The notes under the pieces: model-generated
Told to the model about the DNA's origin: nothing
Databases searched by the model: none
What the model saw: only the letters and a program-made list of their open reading frames with translations
Origin: Candidatus Nitrosocosmicus agrestis
Lineage (GTDB): Archaea; Thermoproteota; Nitrososphaeria; Nitrososphaerales; Nitrososphaeraceae
Reading direction: 5' to 3'
Length of the DNA stretch: 64,000 bases
Assembly (NCBI RefSeq): GCF_008389435.1
Contig: NZ_VUYS01000005.1
Location: forward strand, 124,001 to 188,000
Program-made: the position numbers and the translations under genes
Shown: positions 42,692 through 58,549 of the stretch, piece after piece
Layout: the number at the start of each line of letters is the position of its first letter
Numbering within the stretch: the first letter of the stretch is position 1

Positions 42692-42782
42692 GGGGCTATC
42701 GTCTAGCTTGGCAGGATACCATCCATTTTTGGGTATAAGCCCGGGGCGCTGGCGGTCGAGGGTTCGAATCCCTCTGGCCCCA
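42692..42782 (+). tRNA. tRNA-Pro with a probable non-canonical intron
   Basis: The acceptor GGGGCTA pairs with TGGCCCC, discriminator A. The D-arm is GTCTAGCTTGGCAGGAT and the T-arm GAGGGTTCGAATCCCTC. The anticodon arm only folds if about 17 nt (42722-42738) are removed: CCAGC-CCGGGGC-GCTGG then forms a perfect 5-bp stem with a 7-nt loop and anticodon GGG, giving a 74-nt tRNA. The intron would lie in the anticodon stem (about position 29/30), a non-canonical site. Loop position 33 is C rather than U, which is unusual and leaves the exact splice sites open. An integrase gene follows at once. Confidence 0.8.
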
Positions 42783-42826
42783 CATCAATATTGTCGCTTT
42801 AATAGGCACCGCTTTCTATAGAGGAT

Positions 42827-44113
42827 ATGTCAAATTCCACCGTTGAACTAAATTCTTTGACGGGTAGTGAAGGCAACAATTATTTGACAAGTGCATACAG
42901 AATGTTTGTATTTTCAATCAGATCTGAAGTCACTAGGAAATATTATGAAAGACGACTTAGACATTTCTTTAATCATATCAATTTTGACTTGGAAAATAAT
43001 ACCAATATGGAATTAAGATGCAATAATTTTTCCAATAAAGGAAAAAATGATGCTAATTGGGCTGTTGCACAGGTGATAATATTTTTACAATTTCAAAAAG
43101 AAAGAGTCCAGAACGGAGAAATAACTGCGTCTACATTAAGGAACTTTATTAAGGCAATAAAATTATTCTGTGATTCCTCAGACCTTAATATCCCTTGGAG
43201 GAAACTGATGAAAGGCCTTCCACGCGCAGTACAAGCTGCAAATGACAGAGCACCCACAATAGAAGAAATCCAAAAACTTGTTGAATATCCCGATAGAAGG
43301 ATTAAACCTATTGTTTATACTATGGTATCATCAGGAATACGATTAGGCGCTTGGGATTATCTCAAATGGAAACATGTAACTCCTATCTACGACCATGATG
43401 ATAAAACAGTAGTAGTAGCGGCCAAACTAAAGGTTTACGAAGGTGATGTTGAAGAATATTTTTCTTTTATTACTCATGAAGCCTATAAGGCATTAAAGGA
43501 TTGGATGGATTTCCGTGCCTCATATGGAGAGGACATAAATGGCGAGAGTTGGCTAATGAGAGATCTCTGGCAAACAACTAATGTAAGATATGGTGCTAGA
43601 TGGGGACTTGCTACCATACCTAAAAAAATTAAGAATACTGGTATAAAGAGACTATTAGAACGAGCACTATGGGATCAAGGTATACGAAATAAACTCAAAG
43701 ATGGAACAAAAAGACATGAATTTAAAGCAGCACATGGTTTTAGGAAGTTTTATAAATCAAGAGCAGAGCAAGTTATGCGACCTATTAATGTAGAGATTAC
43801 CATGGGTCATAATATTGGTTTGTCTGATTGTTACTATAGACCTACAGAAAGAGAAGTCTCAGATGATTATCTAAAGGCTGTTGATTTGCTTACGGTAAAT
43901 TCAGATGGTATTACTTTAAAGAAAGAAGTTCAACAGCTTAGAGAAGAAAATCAAAATAATGAATACGTAATAAAAGGAAAACTTCGGGAAAAAGACGAGG
44001 AAATACGGATATTAAAGGAGCAAAACTTACAAAATAATGATACTCTGTTAATGCTATCTGACAAAGTCCAGATATTGATGGATAAGATGAGTAAATCAGA
44101 TAAACTTCCCTAA
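42827..44113 (+). CDS. Tyrosine recombinase (integrase) of an element at tRNA-Pro
   Basis: A 428-residue integrase. The N-terminal core-binding domain covers about 1-150. The catalytic domain shows R172 in VSSGIRLGAWDYLKW, H303 and R306 in AAHGFRKFYKSRAEQ, then TMGHNIGLSDCYYRPT with the nucleophile Tyr (336 or 337). A coiled coil forms the C-terminus (REENQNNEYVIKGKLREKDE). The gene starts 44 bp after tRNA-Pro and reads away from it, the usual layout of an element integrated at the tRNA 3' end. Its last 18 bp overlap the convergent gene downstream. Confidence 0.9.
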   Translation: MSNSTVELNSLTGSEGNNYLTSAYRMFVFSIRSEVTRKYYERRLRHFFNHINFDLENNTNMELRCNNFSNKGKNDANWAVAQVIIFLQFQKERVQNGEITASTLRNFIKAIKLFCDSSDLNIPWRKLMKGLPRAVQAANDRAPTIEEIQKLVEYPDRRIKPIVYTMVSSGIRLGAWDYLKWKHVTPIYDHDDKTVVVAAKLKVYEGDVEEYFSFITHEAYKALKDWMDFRASYGEDINGESWLMRDLWQTTNVRYGARWGLATIPKKIKNTGIKRLLERALWDQGIRNKLKDGTKRHEFKAAHGFRKFYKSRAEQVMRPINVEITMGHNIGLSDCYYRPTEREVSDDYLKAVDLLTVNSDGITLKKEVQQLREENQNNEYVIKGKLREKDEEIRILKEQNLQNNDTLLMLSDKVQILMDKMSKSDKLP

Positions 44114-46477: not shown

Positions 46478-48355
46478 ATGAATCATGACTCAAACGATAA
46501 AAAAACCAGTTCAGAGTTATTAATGGAAGTAGCATTAGAGAAAATTGAAACCTTGTTTAAGGATCAATTTGGTGAAGGTCATGTTAGAGTATTTGTAAAT
46601 AATGATCACCTTGAAATAATTCCTATAAACAGCAACAAATTCACCAGATTTATCTCAAAGTCGTTTTATGATACTTATGGCCATGTATTAAGCAGAGAAA
46701 CGATAAAGGATGTGTCTCAGATACTTCAAGCCAAAGCCGAATTCGGAGGTACAAAATACGACTTGTTCCTAAAGGTGGCAAAATACAATGATGATTTGTA
46801 TTATGACCTGACCAATGATAAACATCAATCTATCAGAATATTTAAAAATAAAGAGAAAGGCATAGCTGAATGGGAGATATTAGATAAAACTCCAGTTCCC
46901 TTATTCAGAAGGTATAATCAAATCCCTCAAGTGTTACCAGTTGTTGCTAATGATTTAGACACTTATCAAGAACATGTTTATGAACATTCGCAGGACAAAA
47001 ACAAGAAAGATGCTTTAGACATTTTCTTAGATAATTTGACCAATATCAAAAATAAAGAATCAAAATTATTGGTAAAAATATCTTTGATATCGTACTTTGT
47101 TCCGGATATTCCACACATTGTCATGCTAGTTCATGGAAGCAAGGGAAGTGCAAAGTCAACCTTTCAGTATATGATAAAAAGCATTGTAGAACCAGCAAAA
47201 CCATCTCTTTTAACCCTGCATAATAATTCAGGCGAGTTTATCCAGCAATTATCTCACTACTATTTACCAGCATATGATAATCTAAAATACAATCCAAAGT
47301 GGCTATCTGACGAAGTATGTAAGGCAGTAACAGGTGTGGGTCAAACAAAAAGAGCCCTTTATACCAATGATGAGGACAAAATATATGAATACAAACATTG
47401 TTTTATTTTTAACGGAATCAACGTCGCCTTTTCAGAACCCGATGTATTAGACAGAAGTATTATAATCAAGCTTGAAGAAATAGACAACAAGAACAGAAAA
47501 ACAGAAGAAGATATACTTAACGAGTTTAACAATTTAAAACCCTGGATTCTCAAAGTCATTTTTGACACTTTGGCAAAAGCCATGACTATCAATTACGATG
47601 TCAAGTATAGGCTGAAAAGAAAGGGAATACTACCAAGGATGTCAGACTATGCTGTTTGGTGTGAGGCCGTATCTCAATCTCTTGGAAATAAAGAAGGACA
47701 GTTTCTAGACATATATTATGAGAATTTAAATCTGCAACTTGAAGAAATAATAGAATCGTCTGTAGTTGCTAAAGTCCTAATTGAATTCATGGAGGGTAAA
47801 GCTGAATGGAATGGATCAGCAACCGAACTGCATTCTACATTGACATCTGCTTTAAGCGACAAAGACGAAAGACTTGCAAGAAGCAAATCATGGCCAAATT
47901 CTTCTAATTCGCTTTCAAGAAAAATCAACGAACTATCGTCCACTCTGAAAAATAGAGGTATTGAAATTTCTCATGGCTATGATAACAAAACAAAAAGTCG
48001 GGTTATCCGAATTACAAATACAGAAAAAATACCGTCGTTATCGTCGTATCGTAGTAGTGACCGTGAGTCTGGTAAAACAATAACTGAAATGAACGTTTTT
48101 AATTTCACAAATTCAGAGAACATAGAAATAGAACGAAAGTCCGAATTAAGACATAGAGGCCCAAACTCTGATAATAAAATTCCCGATGTCCATGACAATG
48201 ACGACAAGAATATCAACAGAGTAATCAACATATATCAAATCGCTGATAGAATTCATGAACATAGCGATATTTGGAAATGCAAACGCTGTGATCATAGAGG
48301 AGACAAATGGGATCTGTTAAGTCACTATCCTAATTGCAGGAATAATAACAATTAA
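46478..48355 (+). CDS. SF3-like replication helicase/ATPase with a C-terminal zinc finger
   Basis: A 625-residue protein typical of plasmid and virus replication proteins. Residues 1-180 are a variable N-terminal part that could bind or prime DNA. The ATPase core has Walker A at about 220-228 (HGSKGSAKSTFQYMIKS), an aspartate-containing Walker B-like HYYLPAYDNLKYNPKW, and the later sensor CFIFNGINVAFSEPDVLDRS. The extreme C-terminus holds a zinc finger (WKCKRCDHRGDKWDLLSHYP then C). The size and domain order fit the initiator helicase of an integrated element. It is the strongest sign that this region can, or once could, replicate on its own. Confidence 0.75.
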   Translation: MNHDSNDKKTSSELLMEVALEKIETLFKDQFGEGHVRVFVNNDHLEIIPINSNKFTRFISKSFYDTYGHVLSRETIKDVSQILQAKAEFGGTKYDLFLKVAKYNDDLYYDLTNDKHQSIRIFKNKEKGIAEWEILDKTPVPLFRRYNQIPQVLPVVANDLDTYQEHVYEHSQDKNKKDALDIFLDNLTNIKNKESKLLVKISLISYFVPDIPHIVMLVHGSKGSAKSTFQYMIKSIVEPAKPSLLTLHNNSGEFIQQLSHYYLPAYDNLKYNPKWLSDEVCKAVTGVGQTKRALYTNDEDKIYEYKHCFIFNGINVAFSEPDVLDRSIIIKLEEIDNKNRKTEEDILNEFNNLKPWILKVIFDTLAKAMTINYDVKYRLKRKGILPRMSDYAVWCEAVSQSLGNKEGQFLDIYYENLNLQLEEIIESSVVAKVLIEFMEGKAEWNGSATELHSTLTSALSDKDERLARSKSWPNSSNSLSRKINELSSTLKNRGIEISHGYDNKTKSRVIRITNTEKIPSLSSYRSSDRESGKTITEMNVFNFTNSENIEIERKSELRHRGPNSDNKIPDVHDNDDKNINRVINIYQIADRIHEHSDIWKCKRCDHRGDKWDLLSHYPNCRNNNN

Positions 48356-48508
48356 TAAATTCTAGATAGATAACCTCAAATAATTACGACGATACTACGG
48401 TTACTACGATATATTTCCTATTATTTAGAAATTTAGATGACCACCGTTTCAGACCATGCAATATCTTTATAGCTTTGAACTTGATTAAATGCAATATCTG
48501 CAATCACT

Positions 48509-48961
48509 ATGTCAGCCAATAATAACACAAACAACAAGTTAATTGTTGAAAGAAGAGAAAAAGTTATGGTCTTGGTGACAAAAGGGCTTAAGGGATATCA
48601 GATAGCTCAGCAGCTGAATATCGACCCCTCAACTGTAAGTCGTGATATTCAATACTTGTCAAAAGAATCTAATAATGCTCTTAATTCTCTTGCAAAGGAA
48701 ACCTTACCATTTATGTATCAAAGTTCAATAGAAGGAATAAGAAGTATTCTAAAAGAGTCTTGGAAAATATATAATAATGAAGAGAAAGATCTGGAATTAA
48801 CCTGGTCCCATAGACTGAAAGCATTGGAGATAACAAAGTCTTGCTATGAGTCTATGTTCAAACTGGTATCAGAAGGTCCATCGTTGGTTTACATGAAGGC
48901 GCTGGAAGAGAGAGTAGAAAAAATATCTTCTGCTTTTGCTAACGAAGATGAAAATCGATAG
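48509..48961 (+). CDS. HTH protein, possibly terminase-small-subunit-like
   Basis: A 150-residue protein with an N-terminal helix-turn-helix (VTKGLKGYQIAQQLNIDPST then VSRDIQYLSKESNN) followed by a long helical part (IEGIRSILKESWKIYNNEEK, ALEITKSCYESMFKLV) and a C-terminal coiled coil. This layout recalls small terminase subunits or replication-fork-type regulators of archaeal elements, but no large terminase is nearby, so regulator is the safer call. Its stop overlaps the start of the next gene, so the two are coupled. Confidence 0.65.
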   Translation: MSANNNTNNKLIVERREKVMVLVTKGLKGYQIAQQLNIDPSTVSRDIQYLSKESNNALNSLAKETLPFMYQSSIEGIRSILKESWKIYNNEEKDLELTWSHRLKALEITKSCYESMFKLVSEGPSLVYMKALEERVEKISSAFANEDENR

Positions 48962-49580
48962 ATATCTAGACAAATTCAATAAGAAATTAGGTAAAATAGA
49001 AAAAGATAGAAAAGAGGAGTTAGGGAAGGCCGAAAAGATAAATGAGGTTGATCTTTTGGTAAAGTTTGATGGTTATAAGCCTCTCAAGTTTGAGCGATTA
49101 AAAAAGCATGGTCAGATTATCTGGGATCATGCATTAGACGCATACGAAATGACTCCTGATGAATTTGAGTATTACTTGGCGCGTTATTTGTACGAAACTA
49201 CGCCGGAAGAACGTTATGACAAAGCCAAATCTGAATGGTTTGTCCATGAGCATACGACGTATGGTAAAGTCGGAATAGCTCATCTGAATATTGATATTAA
49301 TCATGATGTTGTTATCCCTATTAGTAAAGCATATGGATGTACAGGAGACAAATGTGTTCCTGAATGTAAATATTATAATAGAACTGGAATGATAGAGGAT
49401 GATAAAGTAATACAGGAATGGATGGAAAAAAAGACGATAGTAGATCTCGATCAATACAAGGAAGAACTGGGTGAAGAACTGTTTGACAAGATAATTCGAG
49501 ATGATGATAGTTATGATAGAGAAAGGATGCGACAAGAGTGCATTGATCATTACTGTAAGTTATTGTATGAAAAGTGGTGA
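48948..49580 (+). CDS. Hypothetical protein with a Cys cluster
   Basis: A 210-residue soluble protein coupled by a 14-bp overlap to the HTH gene. It begins with a coiled coil (DRYLDKFNKKLGKIEKDRKE). The middle (YYLARYLYETTPEERYDKAK) is helical, and a later segment has Cys at CTGDKCVPECKYYNRTG, a C-x4-C-x3-C cluster suited to a zinc site. The Asp/Glu content is high. I do not recognise it. The frame opens at a TTG at 48936; the ATG at 48948 is preferred. Confidence 0.65.
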   Translation: MKIDRYLDKFNKKLGKIEKDRKEELGKAEKINEVDLLVKFDGYKPLKFERLKKHGQIIWDHALDAYEMTPDEFEYYLARYLYETTPEERYDKAKSEWFVHEHTTYGKVGIAHLNIDINHDVVIPISKAYGCTGDKCVPECKYYNRTGMIEDDKVIQEWMEKKTIVDLDQYKEELGEELFDKIIRDDDSYDRERMRQECIDHYCKLLYEKW

Positions 49581-49667: not shown

Positions 49668-50549
49668 ATGATTGTACCGCAGAAATTAGAGGACTGGAAT
49701 CTTAAAGTGATAGAAGAACTAGTTACTGCCAAAATCAATGAAAGCGATCGACACGATTTCAAACTTATCCTTCCAGAGGCAGAAACTCTTACCAAAACAT
49801 GTTGTGCTTACGCTAATACAAATGGAGGCTTTATTGTATTGGGAATAGGGCAATCGAATAATGAGTGGAAAATAGTGGGCATAAATAATCACACTGAATT
49901 GGCCCATCAATTTGGTCAAAAATTAGTCAACGCCGAACCATCCTTGCCTTTTAACCTGCCGAAAATAATAAAACTACCAAGTTCGGATAAAGTCATAGCC
50001 ATTTTTCATATACCTTTGAGCGATGAAAGGCCCCATATACCATCGGTTTCAGATAAGAGAAAATTTTGGAAAAGAACAAACAAGGGAAACGTTGAAATGA
50101 CTTATCAGGAAATTAGAATGTCTTTTCAACGATATGAAGAACGAAGAGAAAAAATTAAATTACTTCATATAGAGCTATTTCTAAATTTAGAAACGTTGAA
50201 AGGAATTAGAGAATATTATAATAATGGTATTCCTGACAGCAATTTTTACCAATTTATTTTGGATTCAACAACCATTACATCATTAGTTTCTGACTTATTT
50301 AGTATCCTAGGAAAAGATCCAGGAATATTACGGAATCTAATTCTAATTAGAAAAGAAATATCTCGAATGAACCTAGAAAATGAATTATTTAATTCTAGAA
50401 TTATTCTTCCACAATCAAACCAAAGACAAATTGTAATTGATCATAACATTTTTATCAATCAAACTGCCGCAGAGTTGATTCCTCATGTCGAGGTCACTAT
50501 TCAAAGAATCGAAAATCAATTTCAAATTAAAAATCCACTTCTGGAATAG
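49668..50549 (+). CDS. AlbA_2 (Schlafen-like) DNA-binding protein
   Basis: A 293-residue protein. The N-terminal AlbA_2 domain (about 8-145) shows NESDRHDFKLILPEAETLTK, the core CCAYANTNGGFIVLGIGQ and PHIPSVSDKRKFWKRTNKGN. AlbA_2 domains bind nucleic acid and occur in Schlafen-related proteins and in bacterial and viral defence or regulator proteins. The rest (about 145-293) is helical, with no recognised domain. It is the first gene of the right half of the element, which also contains an AvcD-like gene, so a defence role is possible. Start at ATG 49668. Confidence 0.75.
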   Translation: MIVPQKLEDWNLKVIEELVTAKINESDRHDFKLILPEAETLTKTCCAYANTNGGFIVLGIGQSNNEWKIVGINNHTELAHQFGQKLVNAEPSLPFNLPKIIKLPSSDKVIAIFHIPLSDERPHIPSVSDKRKFWKRTNKGNVEMTYQEIRMSFQRYEERREKIKLLHIELFLNLETLKGIREYYNNGIPDSNFYQFILDSTTITSLVSDLFSILGKDPGILRNLILIRKEISRMNLENELFNSRIILPQSNQRQIVIDHNIFINQTAAELIPHVEVTIQRIENQFQIKNPLLE

Positions 50550-51224: not shown

Positions 51225-51612
51225 ATGTCTAGTAATAACTCTGGGGGCATGGGAGGAATATAGGAGGCGTTTAAGCCGGAAGCCCTAATAGATCTTATGC
51301 CGGCTATTAAGCAAGATATAAAATTGGAAATGAAATTCAGTCAAGTGAGGAAACAGATGAAAATTGTATTTAATAAGAAAGAAAATGCTTAATGATATTT
51401 CGAAGAAAATAGATAAGGCCGAAGAAAATGCAAAAGAGATTGAAGCAATTAATCTGGAGCAGCGTGTTCAAAAATGAAATAATTGATGTTTAGATATGGT
51501 GATTGACGTATTCATAAAGAGTACAGAGATATTAGAAATTGAGAACTACAATAAGGAATTTGGGAACCGGTGGCCCATCTGATCATTAGAGGATGCTATC
51601 ATCAAGAACTGA
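51225..51612 (+). pseudogene. Chain of three tiny overlapping frames with in-frame stops
   Basis: Frame 1 (51225-51392) reads MSSNNSGGMGGI, then TAG at 51261, then EAFKPEALIDLMPAIKQDIK to a stop. Frame 2 (51385-51477) overlaps it and encodes a 30-residue helix (MLNDISKKIDKAEENAKEIE and on). Frame 3 (51496-51612) reads MVIDVFIKSTEILEIENYNK and then has a TGA at 51580 before a few more codons. All are polar and protein-like. They lie directly upstream of the AvcD-like gene, and may be eroded small genes of the same system or a leader region. Confidence 0.35.
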
Positions 51613-51701
51613 CTATATAATAATCTATATTCGGGTATGTTTCTATAAAACAGAATTGCAAAATCTAAATAAAGGTAGTTAAGTTAAATATGGCAAAGTA
51701 A

Positions 51702-53177
51702 TTGGAATTATTTTTAGGACTAATTGGTCCAGCTGGGACTAATCTTGAAACTGTTTTGTCTGTTCTTACTTCACTATTTCATAATATACAATATGAAACC
51801 AAAGAGTTCAAAATAAGTAGAATATTGGGTGAATTTCCCGAAGCGAAAAAGATCAATTCATCGATGGAATTTGAAAGAATTAATGGTTTCATGAATCTGG
51901 GTAATTCTATAAGAAAAGAAAGCAAGATGGATGATATTTTAGCCAGATTGTCGATATATAAAATAAGAACTTATAGAAATAACATTCTAAATGACTTAAA
52001 AAAGCCCCTCGAAAGAACTGTATATATAATTAATTCTCTTAAGCATCCATCAGAACTAAAATTCTTGAGAGATGTGTATAAATCGTCATTCTATGCTATA
52101 TCCGTTTATACCTCCCGAGAAAAAAGACTATATCATCTTTCTCAAAAAATGAGCCTATCCGAGTTTAGTCAACCATATGACAGAATGAATGTAAAAGCTG
52201 AAGAATTGATTCAACGTGATGAATCGGAGAAAGAACGAAATCCTCATGGACAAAATATAAGGGACACATATCCTGAAGCGGATGTATTTATTGATGCTAC
52301 AACTGATCAAACCTTAAAACAATCGCTGAAGCGTTTTATCGAAATTATTTTTGGCAATACGTTTCATATTCCTACAAATGATGAATTTGGAATGTTCAAT
52401 GCCTATTCAGCCGCACTGCGTTCAAGCTCATTGGCACGTCAAGTGGGGGCCGCAATCACTAATCAAAACGGAGACATACTTTCAACTGGGATGAATGATA
52501 TTCCATTAAGTAATATAGACATTCAAAACAACAACTATGATGAAAGAAGCTATACCTCAAGTTATGATACAAGTGATGAAAAAAAGCTTCTCGTTTTGGG
52601 AGATCTACTTCGCAAATTGAATGAATTAGAATTGTTAAAACAGTGTTACAAGGATAATGAATTTGCTGATTTGATTAAAAAAATCAAACCTGATTTAAAG
52701 AATTCCCAAATTATGAATATTATTGAATACAATAGAGAAATACATGCTGAAATGTCTGCAATACTTTCTCTTACAAGAAATGGTATGAGTACTAATGATT
52801 GCAAATTATTTACTACTACATTTCCTTGTCATAACTGTGCAAAACACATTATTGAAGCAGGTATAGAGCAGGTCATTTACATAGAGCCATATCCAAAAAG
52901 TCTGACAGCAGATATGTATTCCGACTATATTCAAATAGGTAGCGAATGCAATAACAAAGATAAGGTATACTTTAAATCTTTTATTGGAATTTCTCCAAGA
53001 AAGTATATCGAATTATTCAGAATGATGCAACGTAAGGATGATGACGGAAAAATAATTTCATGGAATAGAACTCATCCTAAATTAAGATACTCTGAAATCC
53101 CTGAATTTTATATATCGAGAGAAGCCAACGAAGTCATTGAGGCAGTTGATTTTCTAAAGAAGAAATTAGCAGAATAA
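51702..53177 (+). CDS. AvcD-like anti-phage (d)CTP/dCMP deaminase with P-loop domain
   Basis: A 491-residue two-domain protein. The N-terminal nucleotide-kinase-like part begins LFLGLIGPAGTNLETVLSVL, a P-loop variant typical of the AvcD family. The C-terminal deaminase has the zinc motif H-A-E at residue 348 (NREIHAEMSAILSL) and P-C-x-x-C at 375-379 (TTFPCHNCAKHII). In bacteria such proteins deaminate deoxycytidine nucleotides and starve phages of dCTP. Start: the frame ATG-GCA-AAG-TAA precedes TTG-GAA, so codon 4 of the natural start (51690) is a stop, and the TTG at 51702 is the first usable start. Archaeal examples are little known. Confidence 0.85.
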   Translation: MELFLGLIGPAGTNLETVLSVLTSLFHNIQYETKEFKISRILGEFPEAKKINSSMEFERINGFMNLGNSIRKESKMDDILARLSIYKIRTYRNNILNDLKKPLERTVYIINSLKHPSELKFLRDVYKSSFYAISVYTSREKRLYHLSQKMSLSEFSQPYDRMNVKAEELIQRDESEKERNPHGQNIRDTYPEADVFIDATTDQTLKQSLKRFIEIIFGNTFHIPTNDEFGMFNAYSAALRSSSLARQVGAAITNQNGDILSTGMNDIPLSNIDIQNNNYDERSYTSSYDTSDEKKLLVLGDLLRKLNELELLKQCYKDNEFADLIKKIKPDLKNSQIMNIIEYNREIHAEMSAILSLTRNGMSTNDCKLFTTTFPCHNCAKHIIEAGIEQVIYIEPYPKSLTADMYSDYIQIGSECNNKDKVYFKSFIGISPRKYIELFRMMQRKDDDGKIISWNRTHPKLRYSEIPEFYISREANEVIEAVDFLKKKLAE

Positions 53178-53212: not shown

Positions 53213-53356
53213 ATGTTCAAGGCTAATTGGGAATGTGAAGTAAGTATGAAAGAAAAGGAGTTAACGTTAAAGGAAGAAATGAATAGAGAAATAGAAAATT
53301 TTAAAGAAATTCCACCGTGGTTAAAGATCTATAAAAAAGATAAACCAAAAGAGTAA
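53213..53356 (+). CDS. Possible 47-aa basic/acidic small protein
   Basis: A short ATG frame directly after the deaminase gene: MFKANWECEVSMKEKELTLK, then EEMNREIENFKEIPPWLKIY and KKDKPKE. It is helical, highly charged, and has a Pro-Pro-Trp motif near the end. A small inverted repeat (ACAC...TGTG) lies just before it. No recognised family. If real, it could be a partner or inhibitor of the deaminase, but only its position suggests this. Confidence 0.4.
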   Translation: MFKANWECEVSMKEKELTLKEEMNREIENFKEIPPWLKIYKKDKPKE

Positions 53357-56134: not shown

Positions 56135-58549
56135 ATGAAAAAAAATAATCATTTGTTTGTATTTGGCTTAACACTTTTTTTAGTAATTTCATTATTAGTT
56201 TCTCCATCTCTCGTGGGTATGAATGTCATGGAGAATGTATATGGTCAATCTTCTGGAGAATCAGATCCAAAAATTCGAACTGGGCCGCCTGCAGATGAAT
56301 TTATCTCTAAGGATTTTCCTATTTCTGAACAAAATCCTACTAATGCTGAAATCCACGGGGATACAAAAGTAACAACAACAACTCCCACCCCTCCTACTAA
56401 TGCTGAAATCCACGGGGATACAAAAGTAACAACAACAACTCCCACCCCTCCTACTAATGCTGAAATCCACGGGGATACAAAAGTAACAACAACAACTCCC
56501 ACCCCTCCTACTAATGCTGAAATCCACGGGGATACAGTTAAGATATCAACTCCTGAACCGCCTTCTTCAGTAGTAAAAAAGAATCCTTTTAAGATTTTCA
56601 AAGGATTGAAAACAATTGTTCCAATCTTCGCAGTTGCTGGGTTGTTACTAACAGCGCAGAGTGCTCATGCTGCTTATCAAAATGGAGATTATGGTACGGC
56701 TATAGGCGATTCTATGCAAGTATTAGGTGATTCTATTGCTATAGCTGGCGTTGTTACTGTGCAGCCGGAAATAGTGGCGGCCGGAAAGGTGCTAAGTTAT
56801 GGTGGACTAATTGTAAGTACTGCCTTCTTCTTTTTTAAGGGCGGGTTAAAGATGATGGATTCGTTGAAAGCTGAAGCCAAAAAAGCTCCTTTCGTCTCTA
56901 ATTCCAACCCCATTACAAGAGTAAGTGATACTAGAAGCAGTAATAACGAGGACAATAGTCCCAGATCTGTAGTAGAATCGGTATCAGCCAGAATTTGTGA
57001 TAGTGCCTGTCTTGCTGAAAATAATGATGTGGATCCAGATAATCCAGATAATCCAGATAATCCAGATAATCCAGATAATCCAGATAATCCAGATAATCCA
57101 GATAACGTCGGAAGTCTCCCTCCAATTTGTAATCCTGGTCAAATTCTAACATTTGAGGGTTGTGTACCTGAGACTCCAACATGTGGTGAAGGCGAGGTCT
57201 TGGAGAATGGCCAATGTGTACCTGAGACTCCAACATGTGGTGAAGGCGAGGTCTTGGAGAATGGCCAATGTGTACCTGAGACTCCAACATGTGGTGAAGG
57301 CGAGGTCTTGGAGAATGGCCAATGTGTACCTGAGACTCCAACATGTGGTGAAGGCGAGGTCTTGGAGAATGGCCAATGTGTACCTGAGACTCCAACATGT
57401 GGTGAAGGCGAGGTCTTGGAGAATGGCCAATGTGTACCTGAGACTCCAACATGTGGTGAAGGCGAGGTCTTGGAGAATGGCCAATGTGTACCTGAGACTC
57501 CTCCAATACCCCCGTGCACCTCTGAAAACGTGGGCTCAGGTAATTGTAAATCTGATAATGCAGAATGTACGCAGAATCCTGTACTTCCTGCTGCTGTTAA
57601 TTGTAATTTTACCGATAGTGAAGGTAACACTCATCTTTACACTTATTGGAATGGTGTTTTACACGGTTATTGTGCGCCAGGTGGAGGATGTGTCTCTACT
57701 CCCATAACAGGTCCTCCAGTTGACGCCCCTCCGCCACCACTCTCCACAACTGAAACTGCCACACTAGCAACAACTGAAACTGCCACACTAGCAACAACTG
57801 AAACTGCCACACTAGCAATAAGTACAGTTGCACCATGTGAAAGTTTGACATCTATTAAATCTAATTGCTCTAGCGTGGTATCCTTACCTTCTACTTTAAC
57901 TCCTTTTATCACTACAACTGAACAGCCTACAGCCGAATCTACTACAACTGAACAGCCTACAGCCGAATCTACTACAACTGAACAGCCTACAGCCGAATCT
58001 ACTACAACTGAACAGCCTACAGCCGAATCTACTACAACTGAACAGCCTACAGCCGAATCTACTACAACTGAACAGCCTACAGCCGAATCTACTACAACTG
58101 AACAGCCTACAGCCGAATCTACTACAACTGAACAGCCTACAGCCGAATCTACTACAACTGAACAGCCTACAGCCGAATCTACTACAACTGAACAGCCGCT
58201 TTCAGACTCTGATGATAGGCTTGACAATTCTCAATCTAGTGACAATATTAGTGATGACAACGGCGGAAGTGATGACAACGGCGGAAGTGATGACAACGGC
58301 GGAAGTGATGACAACGGCGGAAGTGATGACAACGGCGGAAGTGATGACAACGGCGGAAGTGATGACAACGGCGTAAGTGATGACAACGGCGGAAGTGATG
58401 ACAACGGCGGAAGTGATGACAACGGCGGAAGTGATGACAACGGCGGAAGTGATGATAGTCAAAGCGGTAGTGATGACAACGGCGGAAGTGATGACAACGG
58501 CGGAAGTGATGATAGTCAAAGCGGTAGTGATGACAACGGCGGTACCTAA
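56135..58549 (+). CDS. Large surface protein built of five kinds of tandem repeat
   Basis: An 804-residue exported protein. The signal peptide is near residues 1-38. Then come: three full and one partial TNAEIHGDTKVTTTTPTPP unit; a hydrophobic stretch (about 150-245) with two possible membrane helices; a PDN run; six TCGEGEVLENGQCVPETP units; three 8-residue ATLATTET units; nine full TTTEQPTAES units; and about 14 DDNGGS-type units to the end. The Cys-rich units look like small disulfide knots, and the Asp/Gly/Asn tail resembles calcium-binding repeats. Thr/Ser-rich regions are likely glycosylated. An adhesin or matrix protein is the best guess. Confidence 0.75.
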   Translation: MKKNNHLFVFGLTLFLVISLLVSPSLVGMNVMENVYGQSSGESDPKIRTGPPADEFISKDFPISEQNPTNAEIHGDTKVTTTTPTPPTNAEIHGDTKVTTTTPTPPTNAEIHGDTKVTTTTPTPPTNAEIHGDTVKISTPEPPSSVVKKNPFKIFKGLKTIVPIFAVAGLLLTAQSAHAAYQNGDYGTAIGDSMQVLGDSIAIAGVVTVQPEIVAAGKVLSYGGLIVSTAFFFFKGGLKMMDSLKAEAKKAPFVSNSNPITRVSDTRSSNNEDNSPRSVVESVSARICDSACLAENNDVDPDNPDNPDNPDNPDNPDNPDNPDNVGSLPPICNPGQILTFEGCVPETPTCGEGEVLENGQCVPETPTCGEGEVLENGQCVPETPTCGEGEVLENGQCVPETPTCGEGEVLENGQCVPETPTCGEGEVLENGQCVPETPTCGEGEVLENGQCVPETPPIPPCTSENVGSGNCKSDNAECTQNPVLPAAVNCNFTDSEGNTHLYTYWNGVLHGYCAPGGGCVSTPITGPPVDAPPPPLSTTETATLATTETATLATTETATLAISTVAPCESLTSIKSNCSSVVSLPSTLTPFITTTEQPTAESTTTEQPTAESTTTEQPTAESTTTEQPTAESTTTEQPTAESTTTEQPTAESTTTEQPTAESTTTEQPTAESTTTEQPTAESTTTEQPLSDSDDRLDNSQSSDNISDDNGGSDDNGGSDDNGGSDDNGGSDDNGGSDDNGGSDDNGVSDDNGGSDDNGGSDDNGGSDDNGGSDDSQSGSDDNGGSDDNGGSDDSQSGSDDNGGT
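56339..56535 (+). repeat. 57-bp coding repeat, 3.5 copies
   Basis: Near-identical 57-bp units encoding TNAEIHGDTKVTTTTPTPP inside the large surface-protein gene. The DNA identity is essentially perfect, including silent positions, so the expansion is recent. Confidence 0.9.
57179..57502 (+). repeat. 54-bp coding repeat, 6 copies
   Basis: Six 54-bp units encoding TCGEGEVLENGQCVPETP, each with two Cys, identical at the DNA level. A diverged seventh unit (CNPGQILTFEGCVPETP) precedes them and may be the ancestor. Confidence 0.9.
57911..58198 (+). repeat. 30-bp coding repeat, 9 full copies plus one partial
   Basis: Perfect 30-bp units encoding TTTEQPTAES; the last is cut to TTTEQPLSD. A Thr/Ser/Glu/Pro stalk of this kind is typical of glycosylated surface proteins. 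Confidence 0.9.
58253..58546 (+). repeat. 18-bp coding repeat, about 14 copies
   Basis: Units of GATGACAACGGCGGAAGT encoding DDNGGS, with one GVS variant and two DDSQSGS insertions, forming the C-terminus of the large surface protein. Confidence 0.9.

Follow-up and report, generated by a model that had tools for sequence, protein, structure and literature searches.

The 64,000-nucleotide stretch of Candidatus Nitrosocosmicus agrestis DNA analysed here (the window) carries an AvcD-type anti-phage deaminase gene that seems moderately likely to be a defence gene that is attenuated or has recently begun to decay, and not one in full working order. This reading is drawn from four observations taken together: a stop at codon 4, the loss of a conserved GG.Y loop, a decayed neighbouring gene, and broken copies of the same gene elsewhere in the order.

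Judged by its sequence, the window protein belongs to the AvcD-type family and is full-length. It is encoded by an open frame that runs from a TTG codon (51702..53177, forward strand; 491 codons, with the stop at 53175–53177). The protein matched the NCBIfam profile NF041025 (anti-phage dCTP deaminase, AvcD) with 448.2 bits (E 3e-134), above the curated cut-off of 400, with residues 2–443 aligned to profile positions 1–434 of 437. It also matched the PADLOC dCTPase model (E 1.2e-146) and Pfam PF00383 (60.8 bits). An earlier note on this DNA had called the protein AvcD-like, and the NF041025 and PADLOC matches confirm that assignment. The same note had described the family motifs as all intact, which is correct for the three motifs that it named: the P-loop variant GLIGPAGT of the kinase-like domain (51717..51740, forward strand; residues 6–13), the HAE motif with a zinc ligand and the catalytic glutamate (52743..52751, forward strand; residues 348–350) and the PCHNC motif with zinc ligands (52824..52838, forward strand; residues 375–379). 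It does not hold for the conserved GG.Y loop, which has been lost. H348, E350, C376 and C379 are identical in all 148 relatives compared and in the window, and G12 is a G in 145 of the 148.

A structure model built with 72 aligned sequences gave a mean pLDDT of 92.8 and a pTM of 0.91, with a pLDDT of 97 for residues 1–10. In this model, residues 3–217 resemble the adenylate-kinase-related structure 3lw7 (Z 16.5, rmsd 2.5 over 169 residues), with which they share the fold, while the usual P-loop lysine is absent from the sequence of the window protein. Residues 224–437 share the fold of the dCMP deaminase 2hvv (Z 17.8, rmsd 2.1 over 143), the dCMP/dCTP deaminase 7fh4 (Z 16.4, rmsd 2.6 over 136) and 1vq2 (Z 15.1), but these three are single-domain enzymes of nucleotide metabolism, unlike the two-domain window protein. 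Fold families missing from the VIA-align listing were not counted as evidence. The model, the fold matches and PF00383 agree on a kinase-like domain followed by a zinc deaminase domain, a feature that we used for family membership. With AvcD of the AvcID system (Vibrio cholerae VC0175, V. parahaemolyticus) the window protein has in common the kinase-like and dCMP-deaminase-like parts and NF041025; it differs in being archaeal, in its codon-4 stop and in its lost GG.Y loop.

Directly upstream of the TTG, positions 51690..51701 (forward strand) read ATG GCA AAG TAA, exactly as the earlier note had recorded. This stretch is likely the ancestral start together with its first codons; a stop at codon 4 closes it. 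We compared the leaders of 155 relatives collected by protein match, and counted those that matched from residue 3 or before and had an upstream sequence that was not cut off. In all 142 relatives that qualified, at least nine open codons precede residue E2; in the window gene, which has no such open leader, the TTG alone precedes it. This leader is our own observation rather than a published criterion, and we did not use it for membership. In addition, the archaeal relative L190 starts MARTPELFIGL and aligns without a gap to MAK*LELFLGL of the window, and relatives within the order begin at positions matching the window ATG. Because of the 142 open leaders and the gapless match to L190, the ATG at 51690 is probably the ancestral start. 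The note's view of it as the natural start is thus supported. With the ATG frame taken as ancestral on these grounds, the TAA most likely reflects either a true nonsense change or an error in the reads.

The earlier note had also suggested that the TTG may rescue translation. The profile match places the beginning of the core at residue 2 and the model places the first strand at residues 3–8; since the model and fold matches cover residues 3–217 and 224–437, a protein started at the TTG is predicted to have the complete kinase-like and deaminase core. Re-initiation at a TTG directly after a stop is possible by analogy with archaeal termination-reinitiation, as described for overlapping genes in Haloferax volcanii (PMC6728339). 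Among 78 sampled genes, start signals consisted of a TATA-like peak at -31 to -27 before the start, with few Shine-Dalgarno-like motifs, and neither deaminase start clearly fits these signals.

The sequence upstream of the gene was also searched for an antitoxin RNA. AvcD of the AvcID type III toxin-antitoxin system is described as acting on dCTP and dCMP and as having an RNA inhibitor, AvcI (PMC10511110; PMC12409362). Upstream of the window gene there was no Rfam match, and no AvcI-like RNA was identified. Folding z-scores for 20 windows near the gene, and for the regions upstream of six other copies, showed no consistent signal; the five bacterial controls, mostly flat as well, did not clearly differ, leaving the folding test without power.

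The second departure of the window gene from its family lies within the deaminase domain. For the conservation alignment, seven of the 155 relatives were dropped as fragmentary or broken (L005, L055, L080, L174, L179, L181 and L185), leaving 148 full-length sequences. Sixty-four columns are conserved in at least 90% of these, and the window protein keeps 61. The three lost columns all belong to one loop: G272 (G in 148/148, I in the window), G273 (143/148) and the following Y (141/148). This altered loop, GG.Y in the compared relatives, spans 52506..52538 (forward strand; residues 269–279). GG follows the GxN motif in each of the 150 relatives in which the pattern could be located (it was not located in 9 of 159), and T4 dCMP deaminase has GG at the matching place. 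The number of departures is not extreme, as the median is 1 and values reach 10. The window protein alone departs at G272, an otherwise exceptionless column, and six other relatives are each alone in departing at some other exceptionless column. The blocks that hold the loop have pLDDT values of 84 and 63 in the window protein (63 for residues 271–280); the corresponding values for L188, an intact archaeal relative, are 90 and 88.

The GG.Y loop is likewise our own observation; we know of no published definition of the family that requires it, and we did not use it for membership. In human CDADC1, an Asn is described as contacting bound dCTP, and the loop that follows it, the substrate response loop, as reordering when substrate binds (PMC12088426). 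By analogy, we infer that this loop corresponds to the GG.Y region. Since the lost loop lies next to the deaminase pocket, activity is likely reduced or altered; the change could also be an adaptation.

The gene probably resides in what, by sequence comparison, is an element inserted at a tRNA gene. The tRNA gene (42692..42783, forward strand; tRNA-Pro by eye), which has an interrupted anticodon stem, is the integration site, and it is followed at 42827..44113 (forward strand) by a gene that we take to be integrase-like and that gave no Pfam or PHROGs match. An 88% relative of this gene occupies the same site in genome G354, and three further element genes at 46478..49580 (forward strand) are common to the G354 element, encoding a 625-aa protein (33% identical), a helix-turn-helix protein (62%) and a 214-aa protein (33%). 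In G215, G326 and G401, the integrase-like gene is absent after the same tRNA and other sequence is found there; the element is thus absent from that site in three of four relatives checked. These comparisons support insertion at the tRNA. None of the 12-base words of the tRNA recurs within the window, there is no downstream copy of the tRNA 3' end, and this end occurs once in the genome at up to one mismatch. Two words from inside the integrase start do recur in the window, which we read as chance. These searches did not locate the right end of the element.

Some 7.5 kb past the end of the integrase-like gene lies the deaminase gene, which is probably cargo of this tRNA-linked element. Just upstream of it, at 51364..51564 (forward strand), lie remains, broken by stops, that represent a second copy of an element gene; their relative in the G354 element is a 180-aa gene. 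They match the G354 protein with 58% identity over residues 1–31 (E 9e-7) and 50% over residues 144–167 (E 1.5e-4). The surroundings include a Schlafen AlbA_2 domain protein between the element genes and the deaminase (49668–50549; PF04326, 55.7 bits), a lysine-rich 47-aa frame just after the deaminase (53213–53356), which among 15 genomes of the genus was found only in that of the window, and an 804-aa protein consisting mostly of short tandem repeats (56135–58549). The host is by gene content an ammonia oxidiser: the archaeal AmoA family is found in the same genome at 392 bits, in accord with the note's description of its host.

The stop and the loop also admit other explanations. The TTG could be the natural start of a fully working AvcD defence gene, with the upstream ATG and stop present by chance; nothing essential is lost by starting there, the frame is long and of normal codon composition, and 61 of the 64 conserved columns are kept. 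However, none of the 142 relatives has so short a leader, the MA[KR] match to L190 runs without a gap, and the lost GG.Y loop argues against full function, so we regard this explanation as unlikely. We consider it rather more doubtful that the gene starts normally at the ATG and that the stop reflects a miscalled base or an error of assembly: a single base separates the stop from many sense codons, and the starts of relatives in the order agree with the ATG in position, but an error of this kind leaves the loop loss unexplained. It is very improbable that the stop, the adjoining TTG and the rewritten substrate loop have been kept for a purpose, as a low-level re-initiated deaminase with an altered substrate response that needs no RNA antitoxin. 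Recombination beside the decayed element gene, whose remains end about 125 bases before the ATG, could have replaced the upstream end, removing the old leader and leaving an unrelated ATG frame in its place, but the MA[KR]xxEL start matches L190 in spacing, and we give this idea hardly any weight.

Copies elsewhere in the order bear on the attenuated or decaying reading. The NF041025 cut-off was exceeded in 3 of 398 genomes of a phylum sample and in 1 of 70 of the host's own family. A protein search found the gene in 5 of 400 genomes of the order, and in the same five among 400 genomes of the class. These five genomes hold seven copies: that of the window and L188 to L193. Three of the seven have in-frame stops, and the breaks in the other two lie at places other than the window's: L189 (also L005/L055), from a Nitrososphaerota archaeon, has a single in-frame TAA separating the kinase-like domain from the deaminase domain, and L190 has one TGA and a non-matching stretch that by eye is out of frame. 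Unlike the window copy, L188 and L191–L193 have open frames and the GG.Y loop, the latter three all in one genome of the order. Three of the six other copies were scored with NF041025, and L188 (434.5 bits) lies above the cut-off of 400 while L191 (362.5) and L192 (370.5) lie below it. The intact copy of G625 stands near a second, stand-alone gene that we take to be deaminase-like (L194:7586–8170; a weak match), and the G094 copy (L201:9467–10839) is preceded by two genes that, as we read them, resemble dUTPase and dCTP-deaminase relatives.

The window copy and the other copies of the order are alike in falling into one supported group with a single Acidimicrobiia sequence, L062 (FastTree support 96 on 155 rows; IQ-TREE 98/83 on 57 of the 155 rows). 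L004 comes from another group of the phylum and has a different position in the tree. The nearest proteins are about 40% identical to the window deaminase; one protein scan each of genome contigs and of viral contigs gave no close relatives, and megablast of the gene DNA against plasmids gave no match. Literature searches turned up no report of an AvcD-type gene in ammonia-oxidising archaea, and in a 2026 survey of archaeal immunity a term search of the main text returned neither 'deaminase' nor 'dCTP' (PMC12988326). The archaeal setting is nevertheless not unique, as the gene also occurs elsewhere in the order and dCTPdeaminase is listed among the systems more frequent in Asgard archaea (PMC11291487).

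If the gene is decaying, the decay is recent. In the 491-codon frame, 239 of 4,410 possible single changes create a stop, and the frame without further stops bounds unconstrained change, at 95%, to about 55 neutral substitutions, or 3.8% per site. Dating by dN/dS was not possible, as the searches above gave no close relatives. Counting against decay are the 491 open codons, a codon-position G+C like that of the neighbouring genes, and the intact catalytic motifs. Faster evolution of the broken copies was also considered, as their end branches look longer at first sight, but root-to-tip sums in the IQ-TREE tree are alike, and within the archaeal group these lengths, as we read the tree, give no sign of faster evolution in the window copy.

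We therefore propose the following for the attenuated or decaying gene. An AvcD-type deaminase, cargo of a tRNA-linked element integrated in the genome of an ammonia-oxidising archaeon, would, by analogy with bacterial members, starve viral DNA synthesis during infection by turning dCTP into dUTP and dCMP into dUMP. A nonsense change would have closed the ancestral ATG frame at codon 4. The TTG after the stop may still start the whole core, probably at a low level, either through direct initiation at this non-AUG codon or through re-initiation once the four-codon frame has ended, and the loss of the GG.Y loop by the deaminase pocket would likely leave activity reduced or altered. We infer that the window copy is poorly expressed and weakly active.

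AvcD-type nucleotide-depletion genes exist, as a rare group, in ammonia-oxidising archaea and in related genomes of the order, and several copies are broken. The loop lost from the window copy marks a conserved region of the family that can be tested for its role in intact members. If active, the window gene would provide a nucleotide-depletion defence open to testing, in a group of archaea about whose antiviral systems little is known.
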